A stretch of DNA of 64,000 nucleotides from contig NZ_LIQG01000027.1 of assembly GCF_001418015.1 (NCBI RefSeq), positions 62,001 through 126,000 of the forward strand, given 5' to 3'. Position 1 is the first letter of the stretch. Each line of letters begins with the position of its first letter. Shown here in pieces: positions 22,114 to 30,601 of this stretch. This stretch comes from Lacinutrix mariniflava. Lineage in GTDB: Bacteria > Bacteroidota > Bacteroidia > Flavobacteriales > Flavobacteriaceae. Both the position numbers and the translations under genes were made by a program. A model generated the notes under the pieces. The model searched no databases, was not told the DNA's origin, and saw only the letters and a program-made list of their open reading frames with translations.

Positions 22114-24657
22114 ATGGCTAAGAATTTAGTAATAGTTGAGTCACCTGCGAAAGCAAAAACAATCGAGAAATTCCTTGGAAAAGACTTTAAAGTTGAGTCT
22201 AGTTATGGGCATATTTCCGATTTACCTTCCAAAGAGTTAGGTGTTGATGTAGAAGGTGATTTTGATCCAAAATACGAAGTATCCTCAGATAAAAAAGCAA
22301 TTGTAAAAAAGCTTAAAGATTTAGCAAAGAAAGCAGAAATGGTTTGGTTGGCTAGTGATGAGGATCGAGAGGGTGAGGCTATTGCTTGGCATTTGGCTGA
22401 GTCTTTAGGCTTGGTTAAAGAGAAGACAAAACGTATTGTTTTTCATGAGATTACTAAATCTGCAATCCAAAAAGCAGTAGAGAATCCAAGACAAATAGAT
22501 TACGATTTAGTAGATGCGCAGCAAGCACGTCGTGTATTAGATAGAATTGTAGGTTACGAGTTGTCTCCAGTATTATGGAGAAAGGTAAAAGGAGGTTTGT
22601 CTGCAGGACGAGTACAATCGGTTTCAGTTAGATTGATTGTAGAGCGTGAAAAAGAAATTAATGAGTTTAAAGCTGAAGCGTCTTATAGAATCGATGCTGA
22701 ATTTTCAAATGAAGAAGGACAATCGTTTAAAGCAAAATTGCCAAAAGCGATAAAAACAAAAGCAGAAGCTTTAAAGTTTTTAGAGCAAAATGCAAATACA
22801 ACGTTTAAGGTTTCAGATTTAGAGAAAAAACCGGCCAAAAAATCACCGTCAGCACCATTTACAACTTCAACATTACAGCAAGAAGCATCACGTAAATTAT
22901 ATTTTTCAGTAAGTAAAACCATGACTATGGCGCAACGTCTATACGAAGCCGGTTTAATTACTTATATGAGAACAGATAGTGTAAACTTGTCTAACGAAGC
23001 TAAACAAGGAGCAGCAAAAGAAATTATTGATGCCTACGGAAAGGAATACGCAAAAGAACGTAATTATAAAGGTAAGTCTAAAGGAGCGCAAGAAGCTCAC
23101 GAAGCGATAAGACCAACAAATTTTGCAGTGCATACTGCAGGTTTAGATTACGATCAAACAAGATTATACGAGTTAATTTGGAAACGAGCTATTGCATCGC
23201 AAATGAGCGAAGCGAAATTAGAACGTACCAATGTAAAAATAAATGCAGCGTCACATAAGCAAACTTTTACTGCTAATGGAGAGGTGATTACTTTTGATGG
23301 ATTTTTAAAAGTCTATTTAGAAGGTACCGATGATGAAGATTTAGAGCAGCAAGAAGGAATGTTACCAGCCATGAAAATTGGTGAGACATTATTAAATAAA
23401 AATATTACTGCTACCGAACGTTACTCAAGAGCTCCATATAGATTTACAGAAGCATCGCTTGTAAAGAAATTAGAAGAACTGGGTATTGGTAGACCGTCTA
23501 CGTATGCGCCAACTATTTCAACTATTCAGAATAGAAACTATGTTGAAAAAGGAACAATTGAAGGAGTGGAGCGTAATTATACGCAATTAGTTCTTGAAGA
23601 AGGAACCGTAAATGATAATCTACTTACAGAAAAAGTAGGTTCGGATAAAGGGAAACTAGTACCAACAGATATTGGTATTATTGTAACCAATTTCTTAGTC
23701 AACCATTTCCAAAGCATATTAGATTACAGTTTTACAGCTAATGTGGAAGATCAGTTTGATGATATTGCAGATGGTAAAGCAGATTGGAAAGACGTGATGA
23801 AAGCGTTCTACAAAGATTTTCATCCAAGAGTTATCGATGTACAGGAAAATGCAGAAAGAGAATCTGGAGAACGTATTTTAGGTGAAGATCCTAAAACTGG
23901 TAAACGCGTAAGTGTACGTTTAGGTAAGTTTGGACCAATGGTTCAAATGGGAATGTCGGACGATGAAGAAGGGCCAACCTATGCAAGTTTAAGTCCAGAT
24001 CAGCAATTAGGAAGCATCACTTTTGAAGAAGCTATGGATTTATTTCAGCTTCCTAAAAACTTAGGAACTTTCGAAGATCTTGAAGTTGCTGTTAATAATG
24101 GTCGTTTTGGACCGTATGTAAAATTTGGAGAAGCTTACGTTTCATTGCCAAAAGGTACAGATCCCTTAACAGTAGAATTGGATGATGCTATTGTCTTAAT
24201 AAAAGAAAAGCAAGAAGCAGATGCTCCTATTTACATGTATAAGGATTTGCCTGTGCAAAAAGGAAAAGGGCGTTTTGGACCGTTTATAAAATGGAATAAC
24301 ATGTTTATTAATGTGAATAAAAAATACGATTGGGATAATTTATCCGATGATGATATTGTTGAGTTAATTGAAGTTAAAATTCAAAAAGAAATCGACAAGG
24401 TTATCCATAATTGGGAAGATGAAGGTATTCGTGTGGAAAAAGCACGTTGGGGAAGATTTAATATTTTACAAGGAAAGGTAAAAATAGAACTTCCTAAAAC
24501 AACAGATGCTCCAGCCTTGACTTTAGAAGAAGTGAAAGGTATTTTAGAAAAGAATGCTCCAAAGAAAAAAGCTGCTAAAAAGAAACCTGCTGCAAAGAAA
24601 AAGACAGCAGCAAAGAAGAAAACTACAGCGAAGAAAACTACAGCAAAAAAGAAATAA
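22114..24657 (+). CDS. topA: DNA topoisomerase I
   Basis: An 847-residue type IA topoisomerase that relaxes negative supercoils. It has an N-terminal TOPRIM domain (KNLVIVESPAKAKTIEKFLG, with ASDEDREGEAIAWHL carrying the metal ligands). The active-site tyrosine is in LITYMRTDSVNLS. C-terminal repeats with GRFGPYVKFG and GRFGPFIKW replace zinc fingers. The last about 30 residues are almost entirely Lys and Ala with a few Thr and Pro, a histone-like tail frequent in Bacteroidota TopA. An out-of-frame ATG at 22107 precedes the real start. The arginase-family gene follows after 3 bp. Confidence 0.97.
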   Translation: MAKNLVIVESPAKAKTIEKFLGKDFKVESSYGHISDLPSKELGVDVEGDFDPKYEVSSDKKAIVKKLKDLAKKAEMVWLASDEDREGEAIAWHLAESLGLVKEKTKRIVFHEITKSAIQKAVENPRQIDYDLVDAQQARRVLDRIVGYELSPVLWRKVKGGLSAGRVQSVSVRLIVEREKEINEFKAEASYRIDAEFSNEEGQSFKAKLPKAIKTKAEALKFLEQNANTTFKVSDLEKKPAKKSPSAPFTTSTLQQEASRKLYFSVSKTMTMAQRLYEAGLITYMRTDSVNLSNEAKQGAAKEIIDAYGKEYAKERNYKGKSKGAQEAHEAIRPTNFAVHTAGLDYDQTRLYELIWKRAIASQMSEAKLERTNVKINAASHKQTFTANGEVITFDGFLKVYLEGTDDEDLEQQEGMLPAMKIGETLLNKNITATERYSRAPYRFTEASLVKKLEELGIGRPSTYAPTISTIQNRNYVEKGTIEGVERNYTQLVLEEGTVNDNLLTEKVGSDKGKLVPTDIGIIVTNFLVNHFQSILDYSFTANVEDQFDDIADGKADWKDVMKAFYKDFHPRVIDVQENAERESGERILGEDPKTGKRVSVRLGKFGPMVQMGMSDDEEGPTYASLSPDQQLGSITFEEAMDLFQLPKNLGTFEDLEVAVNNGRFGPYVKFGEAYVSLPKGTDPLTVELDDAIVLIKEKQEADAPIYMYKDLPVQKGKGRFGPFIKWNNMFINVNKKYDWDNLSDDDIVELIEVKIQKEIDKVIHNWEDEGIRVEKARWGRFNILQGKVKIELPKTTDAPALTLEEVKGILEKNAPKKKAAKKKPAAKKKTAAKKKTTAKKTTAKKK

Positions 24658-24660
24658 TAT

Positions 24661-25827
24661 ATGAATTTTAATTTCTTGTCTCCAGTTTCAGATGTAGTTT
24701 TAGCTCATAATGAGTTGTTGTCTATGCAAGCGCTAGGACGAAAATTAAGAATTCATTCTGCAGACCAAGGGATTCCGGATTTAGAAGGTGTCTCGGTGGC
24801 AATTATTGGTGTTTTAGAGAATAGAAATGATGCTGATTATATAGGTGAAGAATTTCAGCTTAATGAGGTGAGAAAATCCTTTTATGCATTGTTTCCTGGT
24901 CTTTGGAATACAACTATTGCAGATTTAGGTGATATAAATAGAGGAGAGTCTGTAGAAGATACTTATTTTGCTCTAAAGACAACGGTGTCTATTTTAGTAC
25001 AGAAAAAGATTATTCCAGTTATTTTAGGTGGAAGCCAAGATTTAACTTACGCCATTTATCGTGCTTACGATAATTTAATGCCAATGGTTAATATTGTTAA
25101 TGTCGATTCTCGTTTCGACCTTGGGGATTCTGCTAAGCCGATTAAAAATAATAGCTTCGTAGGAAAAGTAATCTTAGACGAGCCTTACAATTTATTTAAT
25201 TATGCGGCTATAGGCTATCAAACCTATTTTAATTCTCAGGAAGAAATAGATTTAATGGAACGTTTGTATTTCGAAGCGTACCGATTAGGAGAGATATCTA
25301 ATGATATTACGCTTGCCGAACCAGTTATGCGTGATGCCAATGTGGTTAGTATTGATTTAGGGGCAGTAAAAGCTTCTGAAGTTAGTTTAAAGCAAAGAAT
25401 GTCTCCAAACGGTTTAGATGGAAAAGAAATTTGCGCAATGGCACGTTACGCAGGAATTAGTAATAAGGTCTCTGCATTTGGTATATTTGAGTATAAACCG
25501 TCTTATGATGATGAAGTAACAGCGATGTTGATATCGCAAATGTTGTGGTATTTTATTGAAGGTGTAAACTGCAGAGTAAAAGATGACGACTTTTTAGATG
25601 ATAATAATCACCAAAAATTCACTACTTTAGCGGACGCCGAAGAATTAGTTTTCTATAAAAGCACCAAAACAGGAAGATGGTGGATAGAAATTCCTTTTTT
25701 AGCAAATGTTAATAATAAATTAAAAAAGCATACGTTATTACCTTGCACGCACAAAGATTATTTAGATGCATGTAATGGTAAAATACCCAATAGATGGTAT
25801 AAAGCGTATCAAAAGAATAGCATATAA
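24661..25827 (+). CDS. Arginase/formimidoylglutamase-family protein with degenerate metal site
   Basis: 388 residues with an arginase-type (ureohydrolase) core at about 40-300. Homologues are usually named formimidoylglutamase, but three of the six expected manganese ligands are changed. GGSQD at 123-127 has Gln126 where GGDHS has His. DSRFD at 149-153 has Arg151 in place of the His of DAHxD. SIDLG at 230-234 has Gly234 instead of the second Asp of SxDxD. It also has an extra C-terminal segment (about 300-388). Hydrolysis of formiminoglutamate is therefore doubtful, and no other histidine-degradation gene is nearby. It lies 3 bp after topA and 164 bp before gldK, so a non-enzymatic role is possible but unproven. 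Confidence 0.8.
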   Translation: MNFNFLSPVSDVVLAHNELLSMQALGRKLRIHSADQGIPDLEGVSVAIIGVLENRNDADYIGEEFQLNEVRKSFYALFPGLWNTTIADLGDINRGESVEDTYFALKTTVSILVQKKIIPVILGGSQDLTYAIYRAYDNLMPMVNIVNVDSRFDLGDSAKPIKNNSFVGKVILDEPYNLFNYAAIGYQTYFNSQEEIDLMERLYFEAYRLGEISNDITLAEPVMRDANVVSIDLGAVKASEVSLKQRMSPNGLDGKEICAMARYAGISNKVSAFGIFEYKPSYDDEVTAMLISQMLWYFIEGVNCRVKDDDFLDDNNHQKFTTLADAEELVFYKSTKTGRWWIEIPFLANVNNKLKKHTLLPCTHKDYLDACNGKIPNRWYKAYQKNSI

Positions 25828-25991: not shown

Positions 25992-27365
25992 ATGAATATG
26001 AAAAAGTTTCTATTATTAACAGTAGTTTTAACGCTTTTAGCCAGTTGTGGTTCTAGTGACAAAGGTCAATTAGTTGGTGTTAAAGGAAAGAAGTGGCATC
26101 CAGAGAAGCCTTACGGTATGACTTTGGTACCTGGAGGAGCATTTATTATGGGTAAAGCTGATGATGATTTAGCTGGAATCCAAGATGCACCTGCAAAAAC
26201 CGTTACAGTAAGAGCTTTCTACATGGACGAAACAGAAATCACTAATAGTGAGTATCGTCAATTTGTAGAATGGGTTAGAGATTCTACAATCAGAACTAAA
26301 TTAGCAATCTTAGCTGATGAAGTTGGAGAAACTGGTGAAAGTGGAGAGCCTGGTATTGGTCAATTTGCATTTAAAGATGCTAACGAGGAAGAAATGACGC
26401 CTTACGAGCAATACATGATTGACAACTATAGTGGTCTTGGTGAAACTGGCTACGAAGGAAGAAAATTAAATCACGATGTAGATTTAGTTTTCGATACGGC
26501 GGAATATCCAGACGAATACTATGTAGAAGTTATGGATACTATGTACTTACCTATAGAAGAGTCTTATAACGGTCAACGTACTTGGGATGTAACAAAATTC
26601 AAGTTCCAATATTCTTATATGGATATTGAAAAAGCAGCAAAAAACAAAAACTTACGTCGTAAGGATGTTATTATAAAAGAAGAAGTAGAGATCTATCCAG
26701 ATACTACAGCTTGGATTAGAGATTTTGCATATTCTTATAATGAGCCAATGCACAATGACTATTTCTGGCATGATGCTTATGGAGATTATCCTGTAGTTGG
26801 AGTGTCTTGGAAACAAGCTAAAGCTTTCTGCCAATGGAGAACGTTAAAGCATAATTCTTACAGAAAAGAAAAGAAAAGACATTACGTAAACTCTTATAGA
26901 TTACCTTCTGAAGCAGAATGGGAATATGCGGCAAGAGGTGGCTTACAAGCAGCAACTTTCCCTTGGGGAGGACCATACGCTAAAAACGACAGAGGTTGTT
27001 TTATGGCTAACTTCAAACCATTACGTGGAGATTATGCAGCAGATACAGCTTTGTATACTGTAGAAGCAGATGCTTTCGAACCTAACGATTTTAACCTATA
27101 CAATATGGCTGGAAATGTTTCAGAATGGGTAAACGCATCTTACGATCCTAGTTCATACGAACATATGTCTACAATTAATCCAAGTGTAAATGAAGCTAGT
27201 AATCAACGTAAAGTTGTAAGAGGTGGTTCTTGGAAAGATGTTGCATACTTTTTACAAGTAAGTTCAAGAGATTACGAATATGCAGATTCTGCAAGAAGTT
27301 ATATTGGTTTTAGAACAGTTCAAGATTATATGGGAACTGAAGTTACTGCCAATTCAAGACGATAA
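25992..27365 (+). CDS. gldK: Gliding motility / T9SS lipoprotein GldK
   Basis: 457 residues. The lipoprotein signal peptide ends LLASC with the acylated Cys at 19. The protein has a formylglycine-generating-enzyme-like (SUMF1) fold: GMTLVPGGAFIMGKAD at the start, EYRQFVEWV, RLPSEAEWEYAARGG, NMAGNVSEWV and VVRGGSWKD. The paired active-site cysteines of true formylglycine enzymes are absent, as expected for GldK. With GldN it forms the periplasmic ring attached to the outer membrane in the T9SS. It is first of the conserved gldK-L-M-N order; gldL follows after 51 bp. Confidence 0.97.
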   Translation: MNMKKFLLLTVVLTLLASCGSSDKGQLVGVKGKKWHPEKPYGMTLVPGGAFIMGKADDDLAGIQDAPAKTVTVRAFYMDETEITNSEYRQFVEWVRDSTIRTKLAILADEVGETGESGEPGIGQFAFKDANEEEMTPYEQYMIDNYSGLGETGYEGRKLNHDVDLVFDTAEYPDEYYVEVMDTMYLPIEESYNGQRTWDVTKFKFQYSYMDIEKAAKNKNLRRKDVIIKEEVEIYPDTTAWIRDFAYSYNEPMHNDYFWHDAYGDYPVVGVSWKQAKAFCQWRTLKHNSYRKEKKRHYVNSYRLPSEAEWEYAARGGLQAATFPWGGPYAKNDRGCFMANFKPLRGDYAADTALYTVEADAFEPNDFNLYNMAGNVSEWVNASYDPSSYEHMSTINPSVNEASNQRKVVRGGSWKDVAYFLQVSSRDYEYADSARSYIGFRTVQDYMGTEVTANSRR

Positions 27366-27416: not shown

Positions 27417-28052
27417 ATGGCACAAAAAGGTAAAATTACAGTAACTAATATGGTCTATGGACTTGGAGCAGCATTGGTAATCGTTGGAGCTTTATTCAAA
27501 ATACAACACTGGCCTTTGGCTTCTGAAATATTAACAGTCGGAATGATTGTAGAAGCTTTAGTATTTACTTATTCTGCTTTCGAAAGACAATCTGCAGATA
27601 CCGATTGGTCTTTAGTATATCCAGAATTAGCTGGAGGTGTAGCTACAACTAAAAAAGCTAAACTTGAAGCACCTAAAGATGCTGAAGGTTTATTATCTCA
27701 AAAATTAGATAACTTATTAAAAGATGCTAAAATTGATGGTGAGTTAATGGCAAGCTTAGGTAACAGTATTAAAAATTTCGAAGGTGCTGCAAAAGGAATT
27801 TCTCCAACAGTAGACGCTATGTCTGCAACGAAGAAGTATGGCGAAGAAATGACTCTTGCTGCTGCACAAATGGAATCTTTAAACAGTTTATATAAAGTGC
27901 AAATGGATTCTGCTAGTCGTCAAGCGGCTATTAACGAGGAGTCTGTAGAGAATGCAGGTAAATTAAAAGAGCAAATGCAATCATTAGCATCTAACTTATC
28001 TTCTTTAAATGGAGTTTATGGAGGAATGTTAACTGCAATGAATAAAAACTAA
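27417..28052 (+). CDS. gldL: Gliding motility / T9SS motor protein GldL
   Basis: 211 residues. Two N-terminal membrane helices (about 11-28 and 36-55) carry the motif FKIQHWP in the turn and a membrane-embedded glutamate, E46, in the second helix, equivalent to the essential Glu of the characterised GldL. The cytoplasmic remainder is helical. GldL pentamers with a GldM dimer form the proton-driven rotary motor of T9SS secretion and gliding. Confidence 0.97.
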   Translation: MAQKGKITVTNMVYGLGAALVIVGALFKIQHWPLASEILTVGMIVEALVFTYSAFERQSADTDWSLVYPELAGGVATTKKAKLEAPKDAEGLLSQKLDNLLKDAKIDGELMASLGNSIKNFEGAAKGISPTVDAMSATKKYGEEMTLAAAQMESLNSLYKVQMDSASRQAAINEESVENAGKLKEQMQSLASNLSSLNGVYGGMLTAMNKN

Positions 28053-28098: not shown

Positions 28099-29661
28099 AT
28101 GGCAGGAGGAAAAGCATCATCAAGGCAAAAAATGATTAACTTGATGTATTTAGTATTTATCGCAATGATGGCGATGAATATGTCAAAAGAAGTATTATCG
28201 GCATTTGGATTAATGGAAGCAAAGTTTTCTACTTCTAATGACGATACTTCAGAAAGAAATGCTGCTTTATTAGCAGATTTAGAGAAAAAAGGTGAAGAAA
28301 AGCCTGAAGAGTTTCTAATACCAGCAACAAAAGCTAAACAAATAAGTATAGCTTCAGAGAAATTCTATAGTTATATAGAAAGTTTGAAGAATGATTTATT
28401 GAAAAAAGGAGAGTATACTATCGATCCTGAGACAGGTAAGTTACCTTTTGAAGCGATGGATAAAACTGATATTTTAGATGAAATGTGGTTTACAGGAGAC
28501 CGTATGTCTAAGCCAGGTCAAGCTGTAATGGCAAAAATTGAAGCTTACAAAAATGAAGTTAGTGATATCTTAGGAAAAGACGTTAAGGCAAGTAAAGCCT
28601 TAAAAAGTTTTCAGGATTTATTTGATACTTCAAAGCAAAAAAATAAGGATGGTAAAGATATCGATTGGTTAGACTATCACTTTAAAGGATTTCCAGCAAT
28701 AGCATCTTTTACTAAGTTAACAGCAATGCAAAATGATGTTAAAGTAACTGAAGCTAACTTAATGAATTACTATTTAGGTAATGTGTTAACAGATGCGGTA
28801 TCACTTAATAAATATCAAGCAATTATTTTAGCTGATAAGTCTGCGTTTTTTGCAGGAGAGAAGTTTCAAGGTAAAGTAGTAATTGGTAAATATGCTAAAG
28901 TAGCACCTACAAAATTAAATGTTCAAGGAAAAGAAATTGACTTAACAAAAGCAATTGATTCAACTGGAGCTGCAACATTAGATTTTAATGTTGGAAATGT
29001 TGGTGAGCATGATATCAAAGGTAAATTTACCTTCTTAGAAGATGGTAAGCCATTAGAGATTGATATTAAAGGAAACTACGTTGTAGTTCCAAGACCAAAC
29101 TCTGCTACTATTTCTGCTGATAAAATGAATGTAGTTTACCGTGGTGTTTCAAACCCAATGACTATTTCTTTTGCAGGAGTACCAGATAATAAAGTATCTG
29201 CGTCAGGTGCTGGTTTATCTAAAGCAGGACAAGCTGGTAAATATAAAATGGTTCCTTCTTCTGGTAAAGAAGTTACAATTAATGTTAGTGCAACTTTAGA
29301 TGATGGTTCAAGAGCTTCAGATAAAGCAGTATTCAGAATTAAAGATATTCCTAAGCCAACAGGTCAGATGGCAGGAAAGGAATCTGGAAAACTTCCTAGA
29401 GCAAATGTTGCTGCAGGAACAGTTAAAGCAGTATTATTAGATTTTGATTTCGATTTACCATTAACGGTAACAGGATTTAAAGTAAAAGTACCAGGTCAAC
29501 CAAGTATTACTGTAAGCGGTAGTAAAATGAATGGTCAGGCTAAGGCAGCAATTAACAAAGCAAGAAGAGGTGATGCAATACAGATTTTTGAAATTAAGTC
29601 AAGATCTACTGGTCCAAAAATGAAACCAGCATCTCCAATAGTTATAGAGTTATCAAACTAA
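28099..29661 (+). CDS. gldM: Gliding motility / T9SS motor protein GldM
   Basis: 520 residues. A short cytoplasmic start (MAGGKASSRQKM) precedes a single membrane helix (INLMYLVFIAMMAMNM) that sits inside the GldL ring. The rest is periplasmic and made of serial domains; the last, about 420-520, has the GldM C-terminal beta fold, including AKAAINKARRGDAIQIFEIK. It transmits rotation from the inner-membrane motor to the GldK/GldN ring. Spacing to gldL and gldN is 46 and 40 bp, with no terminator between them. Confidence 0.97.
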   Translation: MAGGKASSRQKMINLMYLVFIAMMAMNMSKEVLSAFGLMEAKFSTSNDDTSERNAALLADLEKKGEEKPEEFLIPATKAKQISIASEKFYSYIESLKNDLLKKGEYTIDPETGKLPFEAMDKTDILDEMWFTGDRMSKPGQAVMAKIEAYKNEVSDILGKDVKASKALKSFQDLFDTSKQKNKDGKDIDWLDYHFKGFPAIASFTKLTAMQNDVKVTEANLMNYYLGNVLTDAVSLNKYQAIILADKSAFFAGEKFQGKVVIGKYAKVAPTKLNVQGKEIDLTKAIDSTGAATLDFNVGNVGEHDIKGKFTFLEDGKPLEIDIKGNYVVVPRPNSATISADKMNVVYRGVSNPMTISFAGVPDNKVSASGAGLSKAGQAGKYKMVPSSGKEVTINVSATLDDGSRASDKAVFRIKDIPKPTGQMAGKESGKLPRANVAAGTVKAVLLDFDFDLPLTVTGFKVKVPGQPSITVSGSKMNGQAKAAINKARRGDAIQIFEIKSRSTGPKMKPASPIVIELSN

Positions 29662-29701: not shown

Positions 29702-30601
29702 ATGAATTGTAAATCTTTATTAGCAGTCGTATGTGGAGTACTTATCTCTTCTAGCGCATTTGCTCAAGCTAACATTTTAAATGCTAAATCTCCATCTGAG
29801 ATTGGTGTGAAAACTGAAGAACAAAAAGCTTTAGACAACGATAAACCGTTAGAGTATGGTTATGTTGATGATAGAGATATTATGTTCGCTAAAATGACTT
29901 GGGAAAAAATTATATTAGACGAGCGTGTTAACTTTCCATTATACTATCCTGTGGATACTAATAATATTGGAAGTAATAGACGTTCTCTTTATGATGTTTT
30001 AACGAAGTCTATCGCCGATGGATCAATTGAAAACGTTTATAACGATTCTTATTTTTCTGCGAAGCGTACGGCTAAAGAAATGAAAGACATAACTACTAAG
30101 ATAGATACTCTAGATTACGGTTATGACCAGTTTAATGCTGAAGGTCGTGTAGATCCTGAGTATATTACAAAAACTGAAATTTCTTCTTATCACGTAAGTG
30201 CCTATTTTATTAAAGGATTATGGTACTTCGATAAGCGTCAAGGTGAATTAAAATACCGTTTAATGGGAATTGCACCAGCAGCTCCAGATGTAAACTTTTT
30301 AGATTCAGAAGATGCTGCTAATAGTGAACCAAATGCATTATTTTGGGTATTCTTTCCAGATGCAAGAGAAGTATTGCACGAAGCGAAATCTTTCAATGCT
30401 AAAAACAGTGCTGTTCCATTTTCTTTCGATCACATTTTAAACGCACGTCGTTTTAATGCGGTTATTACTAGAGAAGAAAATGTGTTCGGTGACCGTAAAG
30501 TTGAAGATTATGTTGCTGAAAATGCATTAATGCAACTTTTAGAATCTGAAAGAATTAAAGAAAAGATTAGAAACTTCGAGTTAGATATGTGGTCATACTA
30601 A
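29702..30601 (+). CDS. gldN: Gliding motility / T9SS ring protein GldN
   Basis: 299 residues with a Sec signal peptide (ends SSAFAQ). Characteristic segments are YVDDRDIMFAKMTWEKIILDER, AKEMKDITTKIDTLDYG and the C-terminal HILNARRFNAVITREENV. It partners GldK in the large periplasmic ring of the T9SS. Only one copy is present; no gldO duplicate follows. A terminator directly after it closes the operon. Confidence 0.97.
   Translation: MNCKSLLAVVCGVLISSSAFAQANILNAKSPSEIGVKTEEQKALDNDKPLEYGYVDDRDIMFAKMTWEKIILDERVNFPLYYPVDTNNIGSNRRSLYDVLTKSIADGSIENVYNDSYFSAKRTAKEMKDITTKIDTLDYGYDQFNAEGRVDPEYITKTEISSYHVSAYFIKGLWYFDKRQGELKYRLMGIAPAAPDVNFLDSEDAANSEPNALFWVFFPDAREVLHEAKSFNAKNSAVPFSFDHILNARRFNAVITREENVFGDRKVEDYVAENALMQLLESERIKEKIRNFELDMWSY

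Follow-up and report, generated by a model that had tools for sequence, protein, structure and literature searches.

An arginase-fold protein encoded immediately upstream of gldK in Lacinutrix mariniflava has, on the evidence of aligned relatives, very probably lost its enzyme activity. As the metal ligands of the family have been lost while the gene has been kept class-wide, often beside T9SS genes, the protein probably now serves as a non-enzymatic component, and we tentatively propose that it serves as an arginase-fold scaffold or regulator, accessory to T9SS as its likeliest client. It is not a core part of T9SS.

An arginase-fold protein encoded upstream of gldK

The window, by which we mean the whole analysed stretch of 64,000 nucleotides, carries the gene between topA (3 bases away) and gldK-L-M-N (164 bases away), so that the initial annotation was correct in placing it directly before gldK here (Table 1). 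The arginase family (PF00491) is the sole Pfam match of the 388-aa protein, at 60.9 bits against a cut-off of 22, and the best sequence model overall is TIGR01227 (HutG), which the protein nevertheless matches at only 64 bits against an equivalog cut-off of 229.15. At a threshold of 0.01, PF00491 is matched by 79 and TIGR01227 by 81 of 85 subfamily members. Close named relatives are Flavobacteriaceae, for example Bizionia and Tamlana, and no signal peptide was seen by eye in the window protein.

Table 1. Positions, counted from the first letter of the window, of the arginase-fold gene, its diagnostic codons and the neighbouring genes
Feature	Position	Strand	Evidence
Arginase-fold pseudoenzyme gene, 388 aa	24661..25827	+	ORF, Pfam Arginase, AlphaFold model, structural match
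Codon of Gln126 (where the enzymes have their first His ligand)	25036..25038	+	translation, alignment
Codons 149-153, D-S-R-F-D (Asp149 and Asp153 retained; Arg151 in place of the middle His)	25105..25119	+	translation, alignment
Codons 232-234, D-L-G (Asp232 retained; Gly234 in place of the last Asp)	25354..25362	+	translation, alignment
C-terminal extension, residues 307-388	25579..25824	+	alignments
topA, DNA topoisomerase I; stops 3 bases 5' of the arginase-fold gene	22114..24657	+	
gldK/porK, T9SS ring lipoprotein; 164 bases 3' of the arginase-fold gene	25992..27365	+	TIGR03525, 593.8 bits
gldL/porL, T9SS motor	27417..28052	+	TIGR03513
gldM/porM, T9SS motor	28099..29661	+	TIGR03517
gldN/porN, T9SS ring	29702..30601	+	TIGR03523

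An AlphaFold model built from 85 aligned members reached a pLDDT of 93.9, and its residues 20-306 matched Trypanosoma cruzi formiminoglutamase (2a0m) best of all structures, with a Z-score of 34.9 and an rmsd of 2.2 over 278 aligned residues. Other ureohydrolases ranked next, and metformin hydrolase chains were among the best matches. The fold of the window protein as modelled is thus that of arginase, and by fold and descent the protein belongs to the arginase superfamily (PF00491). The C-terminal region, modelled alone as residues 303-388, had a pLDDT of 77.8 and gave no Foldseek match against the PDB at E 0.001, with a best Z-score of 3.6 and no trustworthy match. The structure search thus lends no support to the extension being a known domain, and its result is evidence for neither a new fold nor a known one.

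No aligned subfamily member retains the full metal site

Enzymes of the arginase family depend on residues that hold metal ions, the six ligands being H, D, H, D, D and D. In the window protein the corresponding residues are Q126, D149, R151, D153, D232 and G234, lying in the motifs GGSQ126D, D149-S-R151-F-D153 and S-I-D232-L-G234. When the protein is aligned with true arginase-family proteins, all six fall in the ligand columns, which confirms the three substitutions (Gln126, Arg151, Gly234) reported in the initial annotation, and the alignment with 18 enzymes rules out a misalignment that would hide other His or Asp ligands.

The same site was then counted across the subfamily. None of the 88 aligned members keeps the six ligands of a ureohydrolase-type metalloenzyme; four are kept in 10 rows, three in 55, two in 8, one in 11 and zero in 4, so that three to five ligands are missing in 74 members, two in 10 and all six in 4. 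The 18 enzyme rows keep six ligands in 14 cases and five in the other 4. A set of 80 loci taken from named genome records, most of them titled Flavobacteriaceae or genera thereof, kept three ligands in 70, two in 8 and four in 2. Ligand loss therefore exceeds what chance would give and is conserved among orthologues, as the initial annotation had suggested checking, but the exact replacing residues are not: among 81 spread rows, position 126 is Gln in 51, position 151 is Arg in 24 and otherwise K, N, S, T and others, and position 234 is Ser, Gly or Asn in 64. Only 2 of the 81 rows have His at 151, and only 2 have Asp at 234, so that this pair of ligands (middle His, last Asp), which we take to be those of metal B, is nearly always lost.

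A class-wide subfamily under selection

Of 295 whole genomes of the class, 274 gave a relative at 1e-10 in a search with the single sequence. The 21 others were included among 80 genomes searched with a profile, which added two further members, both strongly eroded: in L210 (genome G098) and L211 (genome G061) the metal motifs have disappeared along with part of the core, and GYQ, EP and the C-terminal part persist. Both come from a family with genomes of 2.1-2.2 Mb. In a search of 198 genomes across the phylum, matches from other classes ended by profile position 317 of 388 and the best matches from the class of the window extended to 382-388, in each case among the matches listed. Among these listed matches, members of the subfamily are confined to Bacteroidia, the class of the window.

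All listed matches that reach the extension come from the class, and the extension thus distinguishes the subfamily. Beyond position 306, each of the 88 members has 65-93 residues, compared with 0-4 in 17 of the 18 enzymes and 29 in the remaining one, the agmatinase-like protein of the window genome. Eleven of the 30 most conserved positions are in the extension (F331, K333, R339, W340, W341, C362, D366, Y367, A370, P376 and W379), and in the core R208, E220, P221 and R224 are conserved in the subfamily and mostly different in enzymes. (Alignment A1 omits the four loci L020, L022, L024 and L031, and the C-terminal alignment A3 omits rows L172 and L176.)

The dN/dS of the gene was 0.02-0.13 in 10 pairs, compared with 0.03-0.08 for topA and gldK, these values being rough with dS above 1 in several pairs. 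Together with the conserved residues outside the metal site, this indicates strong selection for something other than two-metal chemistry. A decaying or mis-called gene is ruled out by the same dN/dS range and by the lack of internal stops among the matches listed. One homologue, at G057:C1:921214-922317, was matched in three pieces with TAG stops within one, as would follow from breakage of the gene or from an error in the sequence. In a tree of the core domain built without the ligand columns, a single branch, of weak support (61), separates the subfamily from the enzymes, and the subfamily probably had a single origin from an enzyme of the arginase family.

Association with topA and the T9SS genes

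Gene order was compared across 80 spread loci carrying 62 family labels, and, as all were picked from carriers of the gene, the linkage counts that follow are conditional on carriage. The gene gldK lies within 4 kb downstream in 38/80 loci, covering 34/62 families and no locus of the other 28, so that constant adjacency to gldK, a possibility raised in the initial annotation, does not hold; loci L133 and L175, which end within about 1.2 kb of the gene, are counted among the 42 in which gldK does not follow. A PorP/SprF-cluster gene intervenes between the arginase-fold gene and gldK in 37 of the 38 linked loci (that of L115 passes the TIGR03519 cut-off), and in L114, from the same family as the window, the gene stands directly before gldK as it does in the window. 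Directly upstream is topA in 34 of the 38, or in 35 with the inclusion of a contig-end fragment in L141. As the median gap in the 34 measured loci is 15 bp to topA and 140 bp to the next gene downstream, the gene is probably co-transcribed with topA rather than with porP and gldK. A promoter scan gave 7 sites against 7.1 in shuffles, and terminator-like sites numbered 3 against 0.7 in shuffles, all of them within the gene and none between the gene and gldK.

Other arrangements were also seen. A divergent gene of about 338 aa, named by eye as NAD-dependent epimerase-like, lies upstream in 16 of the 42 loci where gldK does not follow, at a distance of about 1 kb in L128, L129, L151, L153, L158, L164, L179, L189 and others. 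In L234 (G472), topA is directly before gldK with neither the arginase-fold gene nor porP between them, which likely reflects gene loss.

To assess co-occurrence with T9SS, we scored 119 genomes of another order, with most families represented by a single genome. Of these, 83 have the gene together with GldM, 1 (G518) has the gene alone, 25 have GldM alone and 10 have neither, which gives a Fisher p of 1.5e-5 when genomes are treated as independent, which they are not. In this scoring, nine of 93 matching genomes were entered as lacking the gene, their sole match being weak and confined to the enzyme domain, and the 108 GldM-positive genomes were counted at E 0.001, with 107 passing the cut-off. 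GldM is thus present in 83/84 carriers, with the gene within 7 kb of it in 43/84, and the gene is missing from 10 of the 11 GldM-less genomes, two of which are 61% and 74% complete. Conversely, 25/108 GldM-positive genomes of this order, about one in four, lack the gene, and no subfamily gene was present in 20 gldM regions drawn from GldM-positive genomes scored in this way. Across the class, 21 genomes gave no single-sequence match; SprA was found in 15 of them, of which two carry the eroded members and four are 60-77% complete. In addition, G256, a 99% complete genome, has an intact gene, yet no GldK over the cut-off, no SprA and no GldM. Its copy lies at G256:C32:92745-93923 (L237), and dS between the G256 and G040 gene copies is saturated.

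The GldM-only genomes and G256 show that the gene, although associated with T9SS, is not needed for it and does not depend on it entirely. This is also what separates the protein from the T9SS core, since it is encoded with porP/gldKLMN in a large share of carriers (38/80 and 43/84) but is missing from some T9SS genomes. The expected co-occurrence with T9SS accordingly applies to most carriers of the gene and not to all T9SS genomes. The GldL proteins of 20 loci without the gene (L216-L235) have a median length of 307.5 aa and those of 38 linked loci (L114-L191) one of 258 aa, a difference that was not used as evidence because lineages were not controlled for.

The gene could instead serve TopA or a general cell process, with an operon of topA and the arginase-fold gene standing before porP-gldKLMN as inherited gene order. 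We consider this unlikely, although the much shorter gap on the topA side, the adjacency of topA to the gene in L117 and L118, where gldK is not alongside, and the T9SS-less G256 all speak for it. Away from gldK, topA is near the gene in only 4 of 42 loci. Moreover, topA is a housekeeping gene and so is not expected to account for the absence of the arginase-fold gene from particular genomes, whereas 10 of the 11 GldM-less genomes are without it. A T9SS role, by comparison, is a plausible but tentative assignment. The initial annotation had invited a role in T9SS or gliding; synteny and GldM co-occurrence bear out the T9SS link, and nothing ties the gene to gliding in particular. A connection to gliding through GldB was dropped, as the GldB model matched 44/50 genomes, including 17/21 of those without the gene, and does not separate carriers from non-carriers.

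What the former active site may still do

Conservation within the old pocket is consistent with a second alternative, in which Q187 and the loop P249-N-G251 would bind a small molecule and the protein would report this to a partner. Q187 is present in 98% of the 88 rows, P249 in 91% and G251 in 98%, while the metal ligands vary, and by the topology of the model's secondary structure these residues would lie at active-site strand ends, presumably those that carry the active site in arginases. The same residues are, however, common in the enzymes too (10, 14 and 18 of 18, respectively) and may for that reason be structural, and we regard a sensor of this kind as distinctly unlikely.

A third alternative is that the protein is an enzyme of altered chemistry working on a single metal ion held by D149, D153, D232 and Gln or His at position 126, which we take to be the metal-A half of the arginase site. 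Asp is kept at positions 149, 153 and 232 in 65, 67 and 70 of the 81 spread rows, position 126 is filled by Gln or His in 59, and the three Asp are all present in 62/88 rows; in addition, each of the 4 deviating enzyme rows differs at a single ligand, which in two of them is the first His, replaced by Asn. Against this, the triad is broken in 26/88 rows (for example L153, L168, L183, L190, L210 and L211) with the rest of the protein conserved, and the six ligand columns rank only 39, 52, 53, 120, 178 and 290 in conservation among 383, which makes one-metal catalysis very unlikely. Where the initial annotation had offered a pseudoenzyme or new chemistry, the first fits the subfamily-wide ligand loss and purifying selection, and the second is not needed.

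Relation to other arginase-family proteins

The window genome has three PF00491 genes. The second encodes a protein that passes the agmatinase cut-off and adjoins an arginine-decarboxylase-like gene, and the third, near hutI, encodes a protein that keeps the six ligands and scores 79.1 bits with the HutG model, also under the cut-off. Because this six-ligand protein near hutI misses the cut-off as well, the low HutG score of the window protein (64 vs 229) is weak evidence for its function; the window protein is probably not a formimidoylglutamase. The hutI gene itself passes its own cut-off and sits elsewhere, away from the arginase-fold gene, so that the absence of histidine-degradation genes noted in the initial annotation is true of the immediate neighbours but not of the genome.

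Arginase-family pseudoenzymes have been described: according to the available portions of PMC11271267 and PMC11399263, MetCb and MefH-beta have lost 3-5 of the 6 ligands, are metal-free, and form heterohexamers as subunits of metformin hydrolase. That the window protein likewise lacks catalysis of its own and pairs as a subunit with an active enzyme of the arginase family is highly improbable, since, although that precedent exists in the accessible parts of these papers, metformin hydrolase chains rank among its best structural matches and 71/80 carriers have more than one PF00491 match, no active arginase-family partner lies beside the gene, whose neighbours are topA and gldK, and a single PF00491 match with an E-value of the subfamily type in 8/80 carriers (one of the 8 being 69% complete; coordinates those of the gene itself in 4/8, among the matches listed) argues against an obligatory active partner of that family.

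A candidate accessory role and comparison with known systems

We favor a non-enzymatic accessory role, in which an arginase-family ancestor would have gained the C-terminal extension and lost its two-metal site. The arginase fold would have been retained, presumably as a trimer or hexamer by likeness to its relatives, and the hydrolysis of guanidino or formimino compounds would have been given up. The protein may then act as a scaffold or regulator at a cytoplasmic site, through a conserved surface formed by the extension together with the helix that bears E220 and R224, if these indeed make up one surface. Its client would be the adjacent T9SS machinery, to whose assembly or motor control it would be accessory. 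Specific docking on GldL is a long shot, and we give little credence to the more far-reaching proposal of a class-wide regulator of the T9SS/gliding motor, with a pseudoenzyme ring, a dead pocket as metabolite sensor and the RWW extension on the cytoplasmic face of GldL.

A literature search of partial coverage on arginase or formimidoylglutamase with T9SS, gliding or Bacteroidetes found no paper on this subfamily, and the portions of PMC8986121 on GldL that were available do not mention the arginase-fold gene. Naming by best sequence match gives the protein the name of a histidine-degradation enzyme, the usual name according to the initial annotation, which is probably wrong and would mislead the metabolic annotation of many genomes. 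In addition, the protein marks a conserved neighbour of T9SS core genes, and cytoplasmic control of T9SS is little known.

Three known systems provide points of comparison. With HutG (T. cruzi 2a0m/4mxr, Bacillus subtilis 3m1r) the window protein shares the arginase fold over residues 20-306, and it differs in its broken metal site, its extra C-terminal region and its position away from hut genes. With MetCb and MefH-beta, as described in the available text, it shares ligand loss, the three ligands lost falling within their range of 3-5; those proteins are encoded beside an active paralogue and act with it, whereas the window gene is not so placed. As arginase-family pseudoenzymes are already known from these sources, a subfamily with its own added region represents a further and much wider case. 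Finally, PorX, which in the accessible part of PMC10951265 binds the cytoplasmic domain of GldL/PorL, provides a precedent for cytoplasmic control of the T9SS motor. To the extent described there, the window protein resembles regulators of the PorX type as a putative cytoplasmic protein outside the core, and it differs from them in having another fold and in being encoded within the topA-porP-gldKLMN locus.
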